Assembly (NCBI GenBank): GCA_905233975.1
Contig: CAJOGD010000008.1
Location: 1 to 54,687, forward strand
Direction of reading: 5' to 3'
DNA: 54,687 nt
From: an uncultured Alphaproteobacteria bacterium
GTDB taxonomy: Bacteria > Pseudomonadota > Alphaproteobacteria > Rs-D84
The translations under genes were made by a program, and so were the position numbers. Of this stretch, positions 122 to 54,653 are shown in pieces. The first letter of the stretch is position 1; every line of letters starts with the position of its first letter. The notes under the pieces are model-generated. The model searched no databases and had not been told where the DNA came from. It was given only the letters and a program-made list of their open reading frames with translations.

Positions 122-166
122 TTTCCTCCCCTTTTTTTCCTTTCACTAACCACTAACACTTACACT

Positions 167-392
167 AAAAACACCGCAATGGAAACCAAGCGGTCGGGGC
201 GTTGAGAAATCATACTATCAGTGATCCCGATGGCCTTTGGATAAACCTATTGTATTGCCATCGGCACCCCGAGCCATGTCGGGGACATCAGTTAACGATG
301 CAAAAGCATTGGGAAACCACAATGGATTACGATGCTTTGCACCGGATAGTACGGGCTTCTCAGGGCCCCGGGACAGACTTCCAATCTGACCC
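167..392 (-). ncRNA. Structured RNA family 1, copy A
   Basis: About 226 nt from the predicted start to the T-tract. It shares the architecture of copies B, C and D: a 5' hairpin (CAGAT/GTCTG), a closing helix (CGGGG/CCCCG), a TGAGAA/TTCTCA helix, an arm (TACTATC/GATAGTA), an inner stem-loop carrying TCGTAATCC, a CCCCGA/TCGGGG hairpin followed by GGGGTGCC, a GATGGC/GCCATC hairpin, and a terminator (CCGC/GCGG then TTTTT). Helix sequences differ from the other copies while pairing is kept. It lies just upstream of the partial paralogue, in the same orientation. Confidence 0.8.
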
Positions 393-398
393 ACGAAC

Positions 399-9030: not shown

Positions 9031-10071
9031 ATGAAAAAGTTTTTAATTTGTCCGATTTGTTTAATGGCGACCGGTGCAATCGCCCAGACAACGTTCTATT
9101 ATGACACCAGTGGCGTATGTTCGTCTGGATTGTTCTTGGACCCGAATGCCACAAGTTGCAGTCAGGCGATTACTAAAATTACACCGCCGGCCGCGTCGGG
9201 CAAGAATTTTAGCGGGTATTACGCGAATGGAACCCAGGTTATCGATAAAAGTGGAAATATCTTGATAAACAGCACCACCGCCGCGACGTTGTTTAATAAT
9301 GCTGACCCCAGTGCTGCAAGTCGTCGCCGGGCCGAGGCCGGATATACCGCGTCGAATAAAATCACCGTTCAACCACGTCAAAATTGGGACGGACAGCAAT
9401 CCGGTTGGTACACGTGCGGTGTTTGGGGGTTCCATATGTGCGAAGAAGACCAAGATTATTATGCGCCACCGGCCGTTAATTGTTGGTCTTATAGTTTCTG
9501 GCCCTGTGATTCGAACGGACAAAATTGCAAATATGATTATGCCTTTAATTCCTATCGCATGGCGGACGGTAAAACATTCGTAAAGCCGTCGTGTCTGCGG
9601 TCCGGCGGTTGTTCGAATGCAAATGGATGTTGGTGCAATCCGTATCCAAATGACATCGCCACCGGTAGTGAAATAGTGGGCAAAGGGTGCAGCGTGGATT
9701 ATCTTGGGCCACTTACGAATGATGTCAATTCTCTTAATAATGTCAGCCTTTGGAAAATTTGGCCCTTTGCGTGTAAAAGAATTAAAAACGGGGCTGATTG
9801 GGTGGACGATTATACTGTATCACATGGCAGGGTTCATGTAAATGTCGATTTGGCCGACAGATGCAAATATGAATTGGTATGCGATTCAGGATATGTCCCA
9901 GAGGTTTCGGAAACCAAGGTGAATTCTGTTGAATGTATCGGCTTGGAATGCAAGGGCTGGTTTGATGGATTTATGTCGGTATTGACGGACTTTAAACATT
10001 TGAATACATCATGTGTTGAAAACACCGGCGCCCAAACAGAAACGGGGTCCGGAACCGTCGGCACAAACTAA
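9031..10071 (+). CDS. Secreted Cys-rich protein, 346 aa
   Basis: The ATG at 9031 is preferred over the in-frame ATG at 9013 because it follows GGGGGAA and opens a signal peptide (MKKFLICPICLMATGAIA). The mature protein starts TTFYYDTSGVCSSG. Like the other cluster members it has an N-terminal segment with F(S/N)G(Y/F)Y and NGTQV/DGxG motifs and many cysteines (about 25). It lacks the repeated C-terminal Flg_new-like modules of its neighbours and ends in a Thr/Gly-rich tail. It lies 30 bases after the 764-aa gene in the same direction. Function unknown. Confidence 0.8.
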   Translation: MKKFLICPICLMATGAIAQTTFYYDTSGVCSSGLFLDPNATSCSQAITKITPPAASGKNFSGYYANGTQVIDKSGNILINSTTAATLFNNADPSAASRRRAEAGYTASNKITVQPRQNWDGQQSGWYTCGVWGFHMCEEDQDYYAPPAVNCWSYSFWPCDSNGQNCKYDYAFNSYRMADGKTFVKPSCLRSGGCSNANGCWCNPYPNDIATGSEIVGKGCSVDYLGPLTNDVNSLNNVSLWKIWPFACKRIKNGADWVDDYTVSHGRVHVNVDLADRCKYELVCDSGYVPEVSETKVNSVECIGLECKGWFDGFMSVLTDFKHLNTSCVENTGAQTETGSGTVGTN

Positions 10072-23598: not shown

Positions 23599-25080
23599 AT
23601 GTTTTTAAAAAAGTTTTTGTTATTCGGGTTGATTGCGGCGGTGTTGCCGGCGGTGGCGGAGGAAGCCGCGGACCGGAAAACCGCGACATCGTTAAAATAT
23701 GTCGAACATGAATTGGACACACGACAAAATAAATTTACCTCGGAATCGAACAAAGCCATGGAATATACCGATTCGGCCGGGGACGTGCAAAAACGCGCGG
23801 TCACATCGGACCTGGATAATGGCGGAACCGATTCGCTGCCTATGGTTGGTGGTGTGAATACTAAACTTGCCACGAAACAGGACGACATTGCCGCAATCAA
23901 CGACCATACCGCCGTCACATATACCGGAACGGCCGGAACAATCGGCGCCAAGGGTATTTATCAGGCAACCGAATCGTATGCCGACCAATCCGATAACCTG
24001 ATTGACGCAAAAACATTCAACGCGGCACTTAAAAGAGGACTCGATAGCGAATTCCTTTGTTCGGAATACAAACCCGGCACAGACCTTTGCTGGGTGTGGT
24101 CGATACATAATAATGCGAGCACAAATTTATTCGATAAAACAGATGGTGAATATATCAGGGCGTATGTGCATGCCACCACTGGTGTAATTACAGAGGGGAC
24201 AGAGCAGTACTCTTTTGTGGTCCCCTGTCAACCAAACACAACATATTCATTAAGTGGTATGATTGGGGGCAACTCACATTGGGGTAGTTTTACAGATAAA
24301 AGTATCGGTACTGTTGCAACGGTCAAACGAACCGGAAATGGCACAATCACAACAGGGGCAAACGATAAGTATTTAATCGGATTAGCCTATACAAGCAACG
24401 GCACATATGATTATAGGAATACGCTAAACATAGAAAAAAGTACACCATACACCACCCTTGTCCCGGCGGGATACACACCGGTGGAATGGATTCAATCCAA
24501 CGGAACACAGTATATTGATACGGGGCGGCCATATAACTCCAATTATACCTACAAGGTCGGATACCAATATGTTAGTTATCCAGACGGCGCAAAGGGCGCC
24601 TTGGGCGCACGACAAACCACAGTAGCGGGAACGGGCACATTTGACATTGGCTGTAATGCAACATTATTCTATTTCTATAACAATTCCACCACTGCTAACA
24701 AAAAAGAACCACGCGATTTAAACCATCATATTGTTGAAATAGACTATACAAATAGTGTACTCAACCTTGATGGCAACACGTTGCCATGGCAGGCCGGGAC
24801 AGGCAGCGCGTGGCAAGGGACATACAACATTTACATCGGTCGTGAAAACCTGGCCGGCACCCCAAATAGTGGCAACGGAACGGTAAAATGGGACATGTAT
24901 AAAGTCTATGATGGGAACAACTTGGTTCAAAACTTTATCCCGGCACGTCAAAATAGTGATAATAAGGTCGGCATGTACGATACTGTGTCGGGCGAATTCT
25001 TTCCAAGTATCCCGACCAACACAAACTTTATCGCCGGGCCGGACATCAATAATATAATCTATGTACCACAGAATCAATAA
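23599..25080 (+). CDS. Secreted repeat-family protein with a LamG-like C-terminal region
   Basis: 493 aa. Signal peptide MFLKKFLLFGLIAAVLPAVA, then the shared module EEAADRKTATSLKYVEHELD... through SLPMVGGVNTKL and NLIDAKTFNAAL to about residue 175. The middle has NLFDKTDG and QPNTTYSLSG, resembling carbohydrate-binding modules. Residues about 290-480 (PVEWIQSNGTQYIDTG, then IYIGRENLAG) resemble LamG/concanavalin-like domains of phage and surface proteins. It ends IIYVPQNQ, the family tail. No promoter lies between RNA copy B and the ATG. A surface or secreted binding role is inferred. Confidence 0.8.
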   Translation: MFLKKFLLFGLIAAVLPAVAEEAADRKTATSLKYVEHELDTRQNKFTSESNKAMEYTDSAGDVQKRAVTSDLDNGGTDSLPMVGGVNTKLATKQDDIAAINDHTAVTYTGTAGTIGAKGIYQATESYADQSDNLIDAKTFNAALKRGLDSEFLCSEYKPGTDLCWVWSIHNNASTNLFDKTDGEYIRAYVHATTGVITEGTEQYSFVVPCQPNTTYSLSGMIGGNSHWGSFTDKSIGTVATVKRTGNGTITTGANDKYLIGLAYTSNGTYDYRNTLNIEKSTPYTTLVPAGYTPVEWIQSNGTQYIDTGRPYNSNYTYKVGYQYVSYPDGAKGALGARQTTVAGTGTFDIGCNATLFYFYNNSTTANKKEPRDLNHHIVEIDYTNSVLNLDGNTLPWQAGTGSAWQGTYNIYIGRENLAGTPNSGNGTVKWDMYKVYDGNNLVQNFIPARQNSDNKVGMYDTVSGEFFPSIPTNTNFIAGPDINNIIYVPQNQ

Positions 25081-36142: not shown

Positions 36143-36172
36143 TTGACCCGATTCGATGTTTTTTGATACAAT
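36143..36172 (+). promoter_or_regulatory. Promoter of RNA copy C
   Basis: TTGACC, 18-base spacer, TACAAT; predicted start near 36179. Confidence 0.8.
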
Positions 36173-36178
36173 AAATCT

Positions 36179-36400
36179 GAATCAGATGGGAATCTGGTTC
36201 GGGGCCCTGAGAAGCCCGTATGAAGTCGGCACATTATGTCGTAATCCGCGTTTCAATTCGCATTCTTCCGATATTCTGTGCCGAATCCTATTGCCCCAAT
36301 TGTCGGGGTGCCTGTAGTGAATACATAAAGACTACGGGGGTCATGACTTCATATGATTTCTCAACACCCCGACCGCTTGGTTTCCATTGCGGCGATTTTT
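36179..36400 (+). ncRNA. Structured RNA family 1, copy C
   Basis: About 222 nt. Helices: CAGAT 36183/ATCTG 36192; TCGGGG 36199/CCCCGA 36367; TGAGAA 36208/TTCTCA 36358; TATGAAGTC 36219/GACTTCATA 36345; GGCACA 36228/TGTGCC 36277; CCCC 36294/GGGG 36305; CTGTAGT 36312/ACTACGG 36331; terminator CCGC/GCGG then ATTTTT. TCGTAATCC sits in the inner loop and GGGGTGCC follows the CCCC hairpin. The terminator stem shares bases with the 3' side of the closing helix (CCCCGACCGC), so the two could compete. The paralogue starts 186 bases downstream. Confidence 0.82.
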
Positions 36401-36405
36401 AATGC

Positions 36406-36555
36406 CGTCATTCCGGCGAAAATTTGTATGCGAGAACGAGCGTAAGCGAAGTTCAAACAACTACAAATTTGCGCGCAGCGAAACCGGAATCCTGTCGAAA
36501 CCGTCGCGGGCCAGTTCTCAGTAAAGCCTGAGGAGATACCGCCTTTCGGCGGTAT
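36406..36555. repeat. Composite palindromic repeat interrupted by a 51-bp mini-element
   Basis: The GTCATTCCGGC/CCGGAAT hairpin found uninterrupted at 23501 is split here by an insert, then continues to TACCGCC-TTTC-GGCGGTA before the gene. CGAAA occurs on both sides of the insert, as expected for a target duplication. Confidence 0.7.
36420..36470. mobile_element. 51-bp miniature inverted-repeat element
   Basis: Ends are AAATTTGTA and TACAAATTT (9-bp perfect inverted repeats) around a conserved core starting TGCGAGAACGAGCG. Copies of the same length lie at 40998-41048 and 47214-47264. No coding capacity. Confidence 0.65.
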
Positions 36556-36586
36556 GACGAGAAGAAAGGAAAAAAAGGAGAGCGAT

Positions 36587-37528
36587 ATGCATTTGAAAAA
36601 GTTTTTGTTATTCGGGTTGATGGCGGCGGTGTTGCCGGCGGTGGCCGAAGAGGCCGCGGACCGCAAAACCGCAACGTCATTGAAATACGTTGAACATGAA
36701 TTGGATACACGCCAAAACAAATTCGGCGCGGATACTAACAAAGCCATGGAATATACTAGTTCGGCCGGCACAGTTCAAAAACGCACAGTTAAATCCGATT
36801 TGGGCAGTGACACAAGCGATACGTCACTTCCCATGGTCGGCGGTGTGAATACAAAATTAAATCAGAAACAGGACGACATCGCCGCGGTTAACGACCACAC
36901 CGCGGTCACATATACGGGCCAACCGGGCGGAATAGGGCAGAAAGGAATATATCAAACAACCGAATCGTATGCCGCACAATCCGATAACCTGATTGACGCA
37001 AAAACATTTAACGCCGCACTGAAGAACGGGCTTGATAGTGAATTCGTGTGTAGGGAAGACAACCTCGATCCGGTGTCCGGACTTTGTTGGCTCTATACGA
37101 TACATAATAACGAACCCGAAAATTTATTTAACGGAATAATGTACCAGGGCGGGATAAGCCAGGCTATTGCATATATATCGCCAGGGTTTAGTACGGTGGT
37201 TTCGCCGTACACACCCGTTAGGTGGCATGGTGTTTCGTTTTATGCCCGGGTAAAACCAAATACACGCTATGTACTAAGTGGGGTACCGGGGGTTGCACGT
37301 TGGGCTGCCTATTATGCAAACGAAAACGACATAACCAATATTTCTTTATCGCTAAATCATGTCTCAGTAACCAGGCCAAGCGGTGAATTTGTCACAGCCA
37401 CTGATACAAATTATGTTGTTGTTAGTTTTGTTAATGGCGATGGCGGCACCAGCCCCATATCCTGGTCTAATGTTGAATTATACGAAAAAACTTCGCCTAC
37501 GGTCTATATCCCCCAGAATCAGAATTAG
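36587..37528 (+). CDS. Secreted repeat-family protein, carbohydrate-binding-like C-terminus
   Basis: 313 aa. Signal peptide MHLKKFLLFGLMAAVLPAVA and the shared module up to about residue 175. The specific region (NLFNGIMYQGG, then VKPNTRYVLSGVPG and FVNGDGG) resembles the carbohydrate-binding modules seen in phage tail and secreted proteins and the middle of the 23599 paralogue. The tail is TVYIPQNQN. The ATG at 36587 is chosen over 36554 because of AAAGGAGAGCG. It follows RNA copy C with no visible promoter of its own and is followed by a terminator. Confidence 0.8.
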   Translation: MHLKKFLLFGLMAAVLPAVAEEAADRKTATSLKYVEHELDTRQNKFGADTNKAMEYTSSAGTVQKRTVKSDLGSDTSDTSLPMVGGVNTKLNQKQDDIAAVNDHTAVTYTGQPGGIGQKGIYQTTESYAAQSDNLIDAKTFNAALKNGLDSEFVCREDNLDPVSGLCWLYTIHNNEPENLFNGIMYQGGISQAIAYISPGFSTVVSPYTPVRWHGVSFYARVKPNTRYVLSGVPGVARWAAYYANENDITNISLSLNHVSVTRPSGEFVTATDTNYVVVSFVNGDGGTSPISWSNVELYEKTSPTVYIPQNQN

Positions 37529-41243: not shown

Positions 41244-42335
41244 TTATTGATTCTGTGGGATATACACGTTTTCATTATACGTTGTTTCGGTATAATCTTC
41301 TTCCACCGGCGTGGCGAGTGGGTAATAAACCGTCACCGGCGTGCCGGCGGCATATTGCGCGGCAAGGAAAGCTTTCCATTTTGCAACATTATCATAAATT
41401 GCCAAATCCGGCTTAAATGTCATGTTCCCATTTGTTATGTTTGTAGAACTATTTTTATTAAAGCCAAACCTATTATCCGGCATCGCAAAAGTATTATCAG
41501 TCCATATATCAAACAGGAATTGCGAACACAAACCACTAATAGTTCGATAATCGGTTCTAATTACATCAGGTACAGAGATGTAATACCCCCTACCATTATT
41601 TATAACGTTCCAATTTTCTGTTCCATCAAGCACCATTACCCCAACCCGTCGTGTTATTTTATGTGTCGCCGCGTCGAACGAATCGGCATAGTCGCCAACG
41701 CGCCGCAAAATCATGTCGCCCTGTTGAAAGAATTGTGGATAAATTGGGTTTGTTGGCGTTGGTATGCCGTCTTGCACAACAGTTCCAGTGGCCGAAACAT
41801 ATGAGTTCTCCATAATGTTATGTATCGTATAAAGCCAACAAAGTCCGGACACCGGATCGCGGTTTTCGGAACAAACGAATTCACTATCAAGTCCGTTTTT
41901 AAGTGCCGCGTTGAACGTTTTGGCGTCGATAAGGTTGTCGGATTGTTCCGCATAGGCGCCGGTTGTTTGATAAATTCCCTTTCGTCCGATACCGCCGGGT
42001 TGCCCAGTGTATGTGACCGCGGTGTGATCGTTAACCGGGTCAATGTCATCTTGCTTTTGATTTAATTTTGCATTCACACCACCAACCATGGGAAGTGATG
42101 TGTCGGACGTGCTGGTTCCCAGGTTCGATGTGACCGCACGTTTTTGCACGTCCCCGGCCGTATTAGTGTATTCCATGGCCTTGTTTTGTTCCGCGGTAAA
42201 TTTGTTTTGTCGCGTGTCCAATTCATGTTCGACATATTTTAATGACGTCGCCGTTTTGCGGTCCGCGGCTTCTTCGGCCACCGCCGGCAACACCGCCGCC
42301 AATAATCCGAACACAAACAATTTTTTCAAATGCAT
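41244..42335 (-). CDS. Secreted repeat-family protein, 363 aa
   Basis: Signal peptide MHLKKLFVFGLLAAVLPAVA and the shared module (EEAADRKTATSLKYV through NLIDAKTFNAALKNGL). The specific region begins YVSATGTVVQDGIPTPTNPI and contains GDYADSFDAATHKITRRVGV, which is closely shared with the 47393 paralogue, then diverges (a YRTISGLCSQFLFD stretch) and reconverges at YPLATPVEEDYTETTYNENV, ending YIPQNQ. The PTPTNPI-type segment occurs in phage and gut-bacterial secreted proteins. The gene is preceded by RNA copy E with its terminator and AAAGGAGAG. Binding or surface role inferred. Confidence 0.8.
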   Translation of the reverse strand: MHLKKLFVFGLLAAVLPAVAEEAADRKTATSLKYVEHELDTRQNKFTAEQNKAMEYTNTAGDVQKRAVTSNLGTSTSDTSLPMVGGVNAKLNQKQDDIDPVNDHTAVTYTGQPGGIGRKGIYQTTGAYAEQSDNLIDAKTFNAALKNGLDSEFVCSENRDPVSGLCWLYTIHNIMENSYVSATGTVVQDGIPTPTNPIYPQFFQQGDMILRRVGDYADSFDAATHKITRRVGVMVLDGTENWNVINNGRGYYISVPDVIRTDYRTISGLCSQFLFDIWTDNTFAMPDNRFGFNKNSSTNITNGNMTFKPDLAIYDNVAKWKAFLAAQYAAGTPVTVYYPLATPVEEDYTETTYNENVYIPQNQ

Positions 42336-42370
42336 TTAACTCTCCTTTTCTTTTTTCACTAATCACTAGT

Positions 42371-42566
42371 AAAAAACCACCGAAACGCTTCTAGTGGTTG
42401 GAGGTTAACGACAATTTAAGGACATTGTGTGCTTATTCTGTAAAAGGGCGAACCCCTACATTATTCACATCCCTCCAACCACAGTTGGTTGGAGTTTTTT
42501 TGCCGAATATATAACCCAGCATCCTTAAAAGGGTCGTTACACCCCGCCAGCGGAACACCCACCGGC
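42371..42566 (-). ncRNA. Structured RNA family 2, copy E
   Basis: About 196 nt. A 5' hairpin GCCGGTGG-GTGTT-CCGCTGGC, a closing helix GGGGTGTAACGAC/GTCGTTAACCTCC, an inner helix TTAAGGA/TCCTTAA, and a CTCCAACC/GGTTGGAG hairpin (42473-42494). The same CTCCAACC recurs just before the terminator (42396-42403). GGTTGGAG could therefore pair with either copy, the second choice masking the terminator's 5' arm. The terminator is AACCAC.../GTGGTT then TTTTTT. It shares the GTGTT-loop hairpin and a GAATAAGCAC arm with copy F. On the plus strand the inner hairpin is followed by T7, so orientation is supported mainly by the promoter. Confidence 0.7.
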
Positions 42567-42572
42567 GAAATT

Positions 42573-46963: not shown

Positions 46964-47194
46964 TGAATCAGATGGGAATCTGGTTCGGGGCTGTCGAAAG
47001 CCCATACAAAGCCGGCACAAAATTGTCGTAATCCGCGTGTTAATTCGCAAAATCCCCGATATTTTGTGCCGTAATCTTGGCATTACCCCGATTTGGTTGG
47101 GGTGCCTATGGAGTATATGTAAAGGCCATGGGAATCAATGCTTTGTATGATTTTCGAACACCCCGACCGCTTGATTTTCATTGCGGTGGTTTTT
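46964..47194 (+). ncRNA. Structured RNA family 1, copy D
   Basis: About 231 nt. Helices: CAGAT/ATCTG; TCGGGG/CCCCGA; TCGAAA/TTTCGA; CATACAAAGC/GCTTTGTATG (10 bp, fully different from copies A-C); GGCACAAAAT/ATTTTGTGCC; CCCCGA/TTGGGG followed by GGGGTGCC; CTATGG/CCATGG; terminator ACCGC/GCGGT then TTTTT. TCGTAATCC is conserved in the inner loop. The paralogue at 47393 follows after a composite palindrome. Confidence 0.82.
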
Positions 47195-47392: not shown

Positions 47393-48466
47393 ATGCATTT
47401 GAAAAAGTTTTTGGTGTTCGGGTTGATTGCGGCGGTGTTGCCGGCGGTGGCAGAGGAAGCGGCGGACCGCAAAACGGCGACGTCGTTAAAATATGTCGAA
47501 CATGAATTGGACACGCGTCAGGATAAATTTACCGCGGAACAAAACAAAGCTATGGAATATACCGATTCGGCCGGAGATGTGCAGAAACGCGCCGTAAAAT
47601 CTGATTTGGGCAGCGATACGTCCGACACATCATTACCAATGGTTGGTGGTGTGAATACTAAACTTGCCACGAAACAGGACGACATTGCCGCAATCAACGA
47701 TCATACCGCCGTCACATACACCGGAACGGCCGGAACAATCGGCGCCAAGGGAATTTATCAGGCGACCGAATCGTATGCCGCCCAATCCGATAACCTGATT
47801 GACGCAAAAACATTCAATGCCGCAATTAAAAATGGACTTGATAGTGAATTTATCTGTTCAGAATATAAACCCGATACAAATCTTTGCTGGGTTTATTCGA
47901 TACATAATAATGGAATGCTGAAACAATACGTTTCGGCCACCGGCACCGGCGTGCAAGACGGCACACCAACGCCAACGAATCCGATTGATCCCGTTTTCTA
48001 TCGCCAGGGCGATATGGTATTACGCAAAGTCGGTGACTATGCCGATTCATACGACGCAACAACGCACAAAATCACAAGAAATGTTGGGGTAAAGGTGCTG
48101 GATGGCACAGAAGGGTGGTCGTCGAGTTCTGGAACAAGCGAGTCAAGTTTTTATGCGTATTCGGACAGTGCTATTTCTGGGCGAAAAATTGGTGCAACGG
48201 GGGCACTTGTTTCGCATTTTGAAGTTTTGACATCTAGTATTATAGGGACAACAGGTAAGTGTTTTTTGGGCGTATCAACACAACGTATCAACTTTACGAT
48301 TGCTCCTGCTTTGGCAAATTCTGTTCCTGCTTTCAAACAATGGCTTGCAGACCAATACGCAGCAGGCACACCTGTAATCGTAATATACCCACTTGCAACA
48401 CCGGTTGAAGAAGATTGGACCGAAACAACATATAACGAAAACGTCTATATCCCCCAGAATCAATAA
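47393..48466 (+). CDS. Secreted repeat-family protein, 357 aa
   Basis: Signal peptide MHLKKFLVFGLIAAVLPAVA and the shared module to about residue 175. The specific region starts QYVSATGTGVQDGTPTPTNP and shares RQGDMVLRKVGDYADSYDAT with the 41244 paralogue, then diverges completely in about 80 residues (GTSESSFYAYSDSA...) and rejoins at the YPLATPVEEDWTETTYNENV tail ending YIPQNQ. This is a mosaic pattern. AAAGGAGAGCG precedes the ATG. Downstream bases resemble those after the 41244 gene (AACGGTACRTCGCG), so the duplicated unit extends past the stop codon. Confidence 0.8.
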   Translation: MHLKKFLVFGLIAAVLPAVAEEAADRKTATSLKYVEHELDTRQDKFTAEQNKAMEYTDSAGDVQKRAVKSDLGSDTSDTSLPMVGGVNTKLATKQDDIAAINDHTAVTYTGTAGTIGAKGIYQATESYAAQSDNLIDAKTFNAAIKNGLDSEFICSEYKPDTNLCWVYSIHNNGMLKQYVSATGTGVQDGTPTPTNPIDPVFYRQGDMVLRKVGDYADSYDATTHKITRNVGVKVLDGTEGWSSSSGTSESSFYAYSDSAISGRKIGATGALVSHFEVLTSSIIGTTGKCFLGVSTQRINFTIAPALANSVPAFKQWLADQYAAGTPVIVIYPLATPVEEDWTETTYNENVYIPQNQ

Positions 48467-52837: not shown

Positions 52838-53887
52838 CTACGGTTCGACGGTGACCCCACCGAACACCGCCCCGCGAAAACGAGCGTAGTACCGAACGTT
52901 GCGCGCGCAGTAGGCCGCGCAGCTGAGTGCACAATTGCCGGCCGAGCTGGCCGTGAGGTAGAACACCCAGGGCGAGACCGCAGTTGCCGCCCCTATATGT
53001 GGGTTCGTTGCTTTGCAATAACAATATGGTCCAGATGGTGTTGCACCACTTTGCCCCGCAACATATGCACTTTCCAATTCCGATGATAGGCTATCCGGTG
53101 CCATTACCGCATACCCATAGCCCGTAAATGTATGGTTTATGCACGCACTTATACCGCGAACCTCTTTATTACACGATGCACCGGTGCATGTCCCGTTGTA
53201 TGTTATTCCCGTTTCTTTCGGCATCACAACGGCCCAATCCCCCTTTACAAAATCACTATACACTGCCGTTGAACAACTGTTTTGGGCATCCGTATGTGAC
53301 GAATCGGTTTGAACCCTTTTATAGCAATACGACGTTGGCGTATCACTTGGTTGCGCATACATTGTTGTTGGTAATACCGTTCCCAACGTCCCCAACATCC
53401 AACCGGCATCAACCTGGGTTAATGCGTCGTCAACCGCGTTTGCAACCGCCGTATTCAGTGTTTCCGCGCGGACCAAACCGTTGCCGTATGTATTTTTAAC
53501 CGAATCGTATATCGGGGTTGTTGTTATACTGTTATCGTCCGATGACCCACTGCGCGTCACAATATTTACCGTTGGTTCTTTTATTATTTTCGATTGTTTT
53601 GTGGTAAGCGCCGTATTTACCGTTCCGACGGTGGTTAGACCGGCGTCATTCTGATTCGTTGCTTCATCGCCCAGTGTTGTTTTGATTTCGCGTTCGCCGA
53701 TTGTTCCCTTTGTACCGGTTGGGGTTATGGCCTTGTCCCCCGTTGTCGCCGGCACCATATCCTGGCGCTCGGAAAGTTGATAATCCACGTATTTTAGTGA
53801 CGTTGCCACGTCACGCGTTTCCGGGTTCGCCGCATACGCACCACCCGCCACTACCATCATTCCAACTATTATCCATATACGTTTCAT
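52838..53887 (-). CDS. Divergent secreted repeat-family protein, 349 aa
   Basis: Signal peptide MKRIWIIVGMMVVAGGAYA. The mature start (VATSLKYVDYQLSERQ) and the blocks LTTVGTVNTALTTKQ and LVRAETLNTAVANAV align with the family module (TATSLKYVEHELDTRQ, MVGGVNTKL, LIDAKTFNAAL), so it is a distant member. The C-terminal ~150 residues are cysteine-rich (about 14 Cys) and different from the others; the PQNQ tail is absent. The ATG at 53887 follows AAGGAAGG. No family 1 or 2 RNA is visible upstream. Confidence 0.78.
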   Translation of the reverse strand: MKRIWIIVGMMVVAGGAYAANPETRDVATSLKYVDYQLSERQDMVPATTGDKAITPTGTKGTIGEREIKTTLGDEATNQNDAGLTTVGTVNTALTTKQSKIIKEPTVNIVTRSGSSDDNSITTTPIYDSVKNTYGNGLVRAETLNTAVANAVDDALTQVDAGWMLGTLGTVLPTTMYAQPSDTPTSYCYKRVQTDSSHTDAQNSCSTAVYSDFVKGDWAVVMPKETGITYNGTCTGASCNKEVRGISACINHTFTGYGYAVMAPDSLSSELESAYVAGQSGATPSGPYCYCKATNPHIGAATAVSPWVFYLTASSAGNCALSCAAYCARNVRYYARFRGAVFGGVTVEP

Positions 53888-54017: not shown

Positions 54018-54653
54018 TTAGTTGTGCGGGACATAGGTCCCGGACGCCATGTTCGTGTGCACTTCGTATATTAAGCAATGGTCTTCCGAGCCGGTCATGC
54101 TGGCGTTCCAACCATCGTCATAATCACTGCATGTAAGCAATCCGCTAAACGCATTCGCAACCGCCGCATTTACATGTGCCGCACGAACCAAACCCTGACT
54201 TGTTGTGGAATTATACGCGCCGGCCTCGTTATACACGTCCGCACTTCCCGTCACGCCGGGATTGTCCCCATACGTCACCAATTTGCCGGCCGTTCCGGAC
54301 AATACATTTTGTTTCCCGTTAAGGCCCGTATTCACCGCACCAACCGTCGGTATATGATCGTTCGCAACCGCGATGTTATCCGACGCGGTTCCACTTAATA
54401 CATTTGATACGTGTCTTTTATCAATTTCCCCCGCTTCATTATGATTTGCATCGCTGCCCGCACTGTTTGGGTACATGATGACGTAATTACCACTTTCCGC
54501 GCCAACCACAGGCTGTTTCGTTTCAACCCGCGTATCGACGTAGTATTGTGATGTTACGGTTTTGCGCTTTGTTGCGTCCGTCGGTTCTTCCGCGTATGCG
54601 CCAACGCATGTCGCAATCATTACACCCATCGCTAGCATTTTTACAATTTTCAT
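54018..54653 (-). CDS. Divergent secreted repeat-family protein, 211 aa
   Basis: Signal peptide MKIVKMLAMGVMIATCVGAYA. KTVTSQYYVDTRVETKQ, IPTVGAVNTGLNGKQ and LVRAAHVNAAVANAFSG align with the corresponding blocks of the family, so it is a short, distant member. It ends soon after the shared module (CLIYEVHTNMASGTYVPHN), at the point where other members carry their variable region; CLIYEVHTN corresponds to CWLYTIHNN in them. GGGGGAAAG precedes the ATG. It precedes the 349-aa member on the same strand and may be cotranscribed. Confidence 0.78.
   Translation of the reverse strand: MKIVKMLAMGVMIATCVGAYAEEPTDATKRKTVTSQYYVDTRVETKQPVVGAESGNYVIMYPNSAGSDANHNEAGEIDKRHVSNVLSGTASDNIAVANDHIPTVGAVNTGLNGKQNVLSGTAGKLVTYGDNPGVTGSADVYNEAGAYNSTTSQGLVRAAHVNAAVANAFSGLLTCSDYDDGWNASMTGSEDHCLIYEVHTNMASGTYVPHN

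Follow-up and report, generated by a model that had tools for sequence, protein, structure and literature searches.

Structured RNAs in the window

The window, which is the entire 54,687-nt stretch of DNA that was analyzed, comes from a relative of Candidatus Enterousia in the order Rs-D84. Genomes of this group are near 1 Mb in size, and a symbiotic or parasitic life has been inferred for its members (PMC12306168). Four representatives of one structured RNA family (family 1, copies A to D) and a representative of a related second family (family 2) reside in the window, each of them upstream of a gene.

166-393, minus strand: copy A, leader RNA of family 1 (covariance model); its gene, at 2-121 on the minus strand, is cut by the contig end
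23256-23491, plus strand: copy B, leader RNA of family 1; gene at 23599-25080
36143-36172, plus strand: predicted promoter of copy C, with TTGACC at 36143-36148, an 18-nt spacer and TACAAT at 36167-36172 (sequence and -10 spacing)
36178-36400, plus strand: copy C, leader RNA of family 1 (fold and covariance model)
36179-36200, plus strand: hairpin P1 of copy C, with a GGGA (GNRA) loop
36202-36217, plus strand: hairpin H2 of copy C, GGGC/GCCC
36208-36213, plus strand: H2 loop TGAGAA of copy C, the 5' strand of the pseudoknot
36218-36354, plus strand: long-range arm P4 of copy C, pairing GTATGAAGTC (36218-36227) with GACTTCATAT (36345-36354)
36227-36241, 36294-36308 and 36311-36338, plus strand: P5, P6 and P7, inside P4 of copy C
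36302-36310, plus strand: 3' strand of P6 and adjoining joint GTCGGGGTG of copy C (covariation in relatives), with 36365-36373 as the alternative, antiterminator partner
36358-36363, plus strand: TTCTCA of copy C, the 3' strand of the pseudoknot
36365-36373, plus strand: pre-terminator segment CACCCCGAC of copy C, whose partner may be 36302-36310 (antiterminator) or, alternatively, the 5' GGGG
36372-36400, plus strand: terminator-like hairpin ACCGC...GCGG and T-run of copy C
36587-37528, plus strand: gene led by copy C, a paralogue of a secreted-protein family (MHLKKFLLFGLMAAVLPAVAEE...)
42369-42567, minus strand: leader RNA of family 2, upstream of a paralogue at 41244-42335 (minus strand)
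46964-47194, plus strand: copy D, leader RNA of family 1; gene at 47393-48466

Transcription of copy C would begin at its first hairpin, P1. In most copies from this genome and its relatives, 5-7 nt separate the end of the -10 box from P1, and a terminator-like hairpin is found in 4/4 window copies, which bears out the promoter and the terminator that an earlier note on this DNA had assigned to each copy. Of the covariance models used, R1 was built from this genome only, and R3 contains none of its sequences. The latter re-finds all four segments claimed in the earlier note at rough E-values of 6e-21 to 3e-16, and its boundaries, listed above for copies A to D, match the claimed ones. Each of the four copies also out-folds 200 dinucleotide shuffles, with z-scores from -4.6 to -6.0.

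A large collection of copies in a small genome

Four copies turned out to be too few, because 36 strong representatives of family 1 and three weaker ones are spread across the genome (G000; 1.04 Mb, 11 contigs). Even this number is probably a lower bound, since several contigs (C8, C10 at both ends, C7 and C4) end inside paralogue genes. In this genome, all strong family-1 copies except one precede members of a single paralogous family of secreted proteins. When the paralogues with upstream sequence are evaluated, 55/55 carry a leader on the same strand, 35 of them from family 1 and 20 from family 2. The weaker copies lead genes for a Stealth phosphotransferase, a small secreted protein, and an HTH-like protein.

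The paralogues resemble each other in a secreted N-terminal portion that spans about 170 residues, and VYIPQNQ forms the C terminus of most of them. Searches of the family against Pfam and NCBIfam gave no match, and a structure predicted for a regulated protein (16 paralogues) was set aside at a mean pLDDT of 47.6. Under a crude rule based on signal peptide and lipobox, 56/72 of the genes located behind the copies of relatives look secreted. The end of the window (53423-53875 and 54102-54644, minus strand) encodes two more members of the secreted family, both of them distant (33-37% identity).

A conserved and covarying fold

The copies from this genome support P1 (mostly GNRA-capped), H2, P4, P5, P6, P7, and the terminator-like hairpin (n = 36). 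The claim that these RNAs form a covarying family is upheld by the same 36 copies, in which 96.4% of cells are paired compared to 80.8% after shuffling, double-changed cells number 313 compared to 95, and the covariation score of 0.521 (0.214 shuffled) is reached in 0/500 shuffles; copies from one genome are not independent and such shuffles overstate significance, but sets from other genomes agree. These comparison sets comprise 82 copies from other Rs-D84 genomes, 18 from other alphaproteobacterial orders, and 20 from plasmids and larger genomes.

The long arm proposed in the earlier note, P4, is paired at 95% in the 82 copies from other Rs-D84 genomes, against 54% when shuffled, and at 90% and 93% in the 18- and 20-copy sets, with shuffled values of 50-54% across the sets. 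Its sequence is distinct in 34/36 copies of this genome, each strand still fitting its own partner (mean score 19.0, compared to 7.7 with the partners of other copies).

The next helix in the earlier description, TGAGAA/TTCTCA, is a real pairing. Its placement has to be revised, as a pseudoknot that joins the loop of the H2 hairpin to the 3' tail is the better reading. The predicted pseudoknot is paired in 487/489, 108/108, and 120/120 cases in the 82-, 18-, and 20-copy sets, compared to 70-71% in shuffled alignments (71% for the largest set). The H2 stem (GGGC/GCCC) changes by compensation, for example to GGAC/GTCC in L253, and covaries both in Rs-D84 and in other orders. In the plasmid set as aligned, H2 is paired at 85%, equal to the 85% of shuffles, and lacks covariation.

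A nested P2-P3-P4 arm had been the first fold considered. Hardly any covariation is specific to its P2 helix (5' GGGG and 3' CCCC), and H2 plus the pseudoknot is preferred because it fits better. Some of the joints reported as fixed and unpaired are indeed conserved in this way, but TCG lies in hairpin P5. Similarly, the GGGG of the joint GGGGTGCC is part of hairpin P6, and the TG that follows it changes with compensation in relatives. When single copies are folded by minimum energy, the 5' strand of P5 joins a more distant strand, a pairing that by eye also appears compensated. Overall, a conserved fold for this RNA is well supported by sequence comparison.

Position upstream of co-oriented genes

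The earlier note pictured a free-standing RNA of 220-235 nt. That picture gives way to a well-supported assignment as the putative 5' leader of a co-oriented gene, with the RNA ending in a terminator just upstream of the coding region. A Shine-Dalgarno sequence and start codon follow the RNA in 72/82 family-1 copies of relatives, with a median gap of 22 nt. Start codons lie no more than 40 nt after the RNA in 61/82 of these copies, compared to 2/82 in the outward control, and those 61 cluster 14-33 nt downstream. Family 2 has leader geometry in 20/20. A trans-acting sRNA gene was rejected as a candidate because start codons cluster about 22 nt downstream. The shortest gap between leader and gene (C3_7088) would not accommodate a second promoter.

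The gap is often longer in this genome because repeats intervene between terminator and gene. A palindromic interspersed repeat (GCCGTCATTCCGGCGAAA...GGTATGACG) occupies this position at 36400-36560 of the window and at many other copies in the genome; the relatives examined mostly lack spacing of this type.

Some copies of relatives (L113, L246, L244, L237, L239, and L119) have no adjacent gene. Another possible hairpin comes next in gene-less copies, in some cases with a CCTTCTC-like loop, and L113 and L246 are gene-less copies at the same site in two species. On contig C4 of the present genome (248439-248962), a gene-less family-1 leader stands back to back with a gene-bearing family-2 leader.

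Distribution in Alphaproteobacteria and on plasmids

Matches to R1 are present in 171/201 Rs-D84 genomes and in 23/289 genomes of an alphaproteobacterial sample, of which R3 matches 37/289 (29/223 genera). In a sample of the phylum, seven genomes have a match, and all seven are Alphaproteobacteria. A BLAST search whose query was a single copy taken from a larger genome uncovered similar sequence in 397 plasmid records, mostly from Agrobacterium and Rhizobium.

On pAt4 and on Pararhizobium p2, about 25 nt lie between the end of the match and traM. On the Ti plasmid pTiC58 (NZ_AF010180), the RNA is located at 9191-9381 of the record and traM starts at 9426. R1 finds plasmid leaders at rough E-values of 1e-13 to 5e-7; the pTiC58 traM leader itself is found by R3 (E 1e-17), not by R1. 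The models built from either side detect the other, the boundaries match, and the pseudoknot, P4, P7, and the predicted antiterminator are held in common. On these shared features, the window RNA is assigned to the same class as the traM leaders of Ti and rhizobial plasmids.

Other copies precede HTH proteins or a gene for a small DUF2285 protein that faces DUF2285/DUF6499 genes, which is the arrangement of qseM and fseA. Judged by annotation and gene order, these small DUF2285 genes look like qseM. On plasmids, the RNA is located before HTH genes and before repressors of conjugation, namely TraM and QseM-like proteins with DUF2285. The leader class that almost exclusively accompanies one gene family here is followed in other species by unrelated genes, with similar spacing.

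A proposed attenuation mechanism

The 3' strand of P6 and its adjoining joint are complementary to the segment that enters the terminator, with different sequences in different species (GGUCGGGGAG/CUCCCCGACC, GGUCGGGUAU/AUACCCGACC, and others). Because this strand covaries with a segment that overlaps the terminator, an antiterminator is implied. Column pair 358-450, which adjoins the invariant G-C core of the predicted antiterminator, is paired in 76/80 copies compared to 57 expected, occurs as AU, GU, UA, and GC, and is equaled in 0/2000 shuffles. The whole helix is paired at 129/129 in other orders, against 94% for shuffles. The pre-terminator CCCC can pair with the 5' GGGG in addition to P6, and the invariant G-C core cannot separate these two partners; it is the flanking positions, where the competing pairing covaries, that support the antiterminator.

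In the mechanism we propose, the leader would be transcribed from its own promoter and adopt a compact fold with P1 (GNRA loop), H2, and P4, in which the H2 loop forms the pseudoknot with the 3' tail and P4 closes a P5/P6/P7 junction. With P6 closed, terminator formation would be possible and the gene would be off. The other state would have the 3' strand of P6 and the joint (GUCGGGGUG) paired with the pre-terminator segment (CACCCCGAC), and this antiterminator, overlapping the terminator stem, would allow the gene to be read. A cellular signal that stabilizes the pseudoknotted fold would decide between the two. We infer that the two states interchange in vivo, with the compact one being OFF, and that some ligand, be it metabolite, protein, or RNA, is sensed.

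Family 2 appears to use the same attenuator logic with other sequence, as in TGGTTGGAGG/CCTCCAACCA or, in two copies, GGCCAGGAAGG/CCTCCTGGCC, and the two families detect each other weakly in model searches. Termination may be weak at some family-1 copies, since their T-run is poor (C5_55566 has none). In the GC-rich versions from plasmids, no clear T-run is present and another hairpin comes before the gene, which suggests that their expression platform may differ; these versions may act on translation instead. In the GC-rich loci from plasmids and larger genomes (L327-L348), a hairpin, GCGGGGGCGYACCGC, is conserved between the RNA and the start codon.

Competing explanations

Comparison of sequences establishes the leader position, promoter, predicted fold, pseudoknot, competing pairing, and breadth across Alphaproteobacteria. 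The RNA lies 5' of a co-oriented gene and has a complex fold that covaries across species. The best reading is that of a new attenuation leader, riboswitch-like in character, that is widespread among Alphaproteobacteria and has been amplified in genome-reduced gut bacteria, and we put the probability that it is a cis-acting 5' leader controlling the gene just downstream, most likely via transcription attenuation, at about 0.72. In Rs-D84, the leader has spread together with the genes for secreted proteins.

There is a substantial chance, somewhat short of even, that the attenuator is run by an RNA-binding protein or a trans-acting RNA and not by a small molecule, in which case it would not strictly be a riboswitch. 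This proposal overlaps the preferred attenuator reading, where the nature of the signal is left open. The sequence names no small molecule, and the secreted proteins, the Stealth phosphotransferase, TraM, and the HTH proteins share no metabolic pathway. TraM has been reported to be lower in an A. tumefaciens hfq mutant (PMC4201532). A c-di-GMP riboswitch was considered and rejected, as there was no Rfam match, and c-di-GMP is an unlikely ligand because no GGDEF gene was found in this genome or in the 15 congeners searched. Conserved unpaired joints, a GNRA-capped P1, and a pseudoknot nevertheless resemble the architecture of ligand-binding RNAs.

Far less probable is a free trans-acting RNA of the size given above, released by its terminator, next to a gene that is there by coincidence or has its own promoter. 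Nearly every copy has a promoter and terminator-like hairpin of its own, and relatives harbor gene-less copies (L113, L246, L244, L237, and L239), but the start-codon geometry compared to the control, the leader on every evaluable paralogue, and the similar geometry on plasmids all speak against it. We also regard it as unlikely that the leader is a passive passenger of gene-cassette duplication that, with its terminator, sets constant low expression or insulates the gene from upstream transcription. The near confinement of strong copies to one paralogue family in this genome would suit such a passenger, as would the variation of P4, which drift under a pairing constraint would give. Conversely, copies in other species precede unrelated genes, and the conservation of pseudoknot and competing pairing across orders exceeds what an insulator needs.

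Implications

A more ambitious proposal, which we consider doubtful, is that the RNA is a new riboswitch class, old in Alphaproteobacteria, through which one signal links the control of conjugation with surface display in gut symbionts. Plasmids and islands would use it before TraM and QseM-like antiactivators, and symbionts would have amplified it, as two related classes, to >50 switches in each genome. Both the surface dress of Alphaproteobacteria and their sharing of DNA may be under the control of one overlooked RNA switch. Its ligand, once found, would reveal what is being sensed as these bacteria alter their surface or restrain a plasmid. Some Rs-D84 bacteria harbor, in a single genome, dozens of copies of a class absent from Rfam, and a symbiont with 1 Mb of DNA appears to devote about 55 RNA leaders to one secreted-protein family. 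The putative layer of RNA control before traM, which encodes the antiactivator of Ti plasmid transfer, is already open to bench experiments.

Comparison with known systems

Control of traM is exerted by TraR. For qseM of symbiosis ICEs, the control described is by QseC (PMC8627217). The RNA presented here lies directly upstream of traM on pTiC58 and of qseM-like DUF2285 genes, and, unlike control by TraR or QseC, a structured leader of this kind was not found in the literature searched. No earlier report of this RNA or of a structured traM or qseM leader emerged from that literature, whose coverage was partial and included few subscription papers.

Earlier structured leaders from Alphaproteobacteria include those of serC, speF, ybhL, and metA (SAM-II), which likewise came to light through comparative analysis, upstream of genes of Agrobacterium and related bacteria (PMC1273637). 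They differ in the genes they precede, traM is absent from the text of that report, and their Rfam models gave no match here. The claim that the RNA belongs to no known class holds for the window, for diverse relatives, and for plasmid homologues: at the gathering score, Rfam 15 returned no family, and three permissive scans gave weak unrelated matches only.

The closest parallels in organization are riboswitches and RNA attenuators such as the SAM-I, c-di-GMP-I, and T-box leaders, which like the window RNA are 5' leaders with a compact conserved fold, and which have just before the Shine-Dalgarno sequence a terminator and a competing antiterminator, as predicted for the window RNA. Unlike these classes, the window RNA stands outside Rfam, the genes it appears to regulate share no metabolic pathway, and its class attains up to 36-48 copies per 1 Mb genome.
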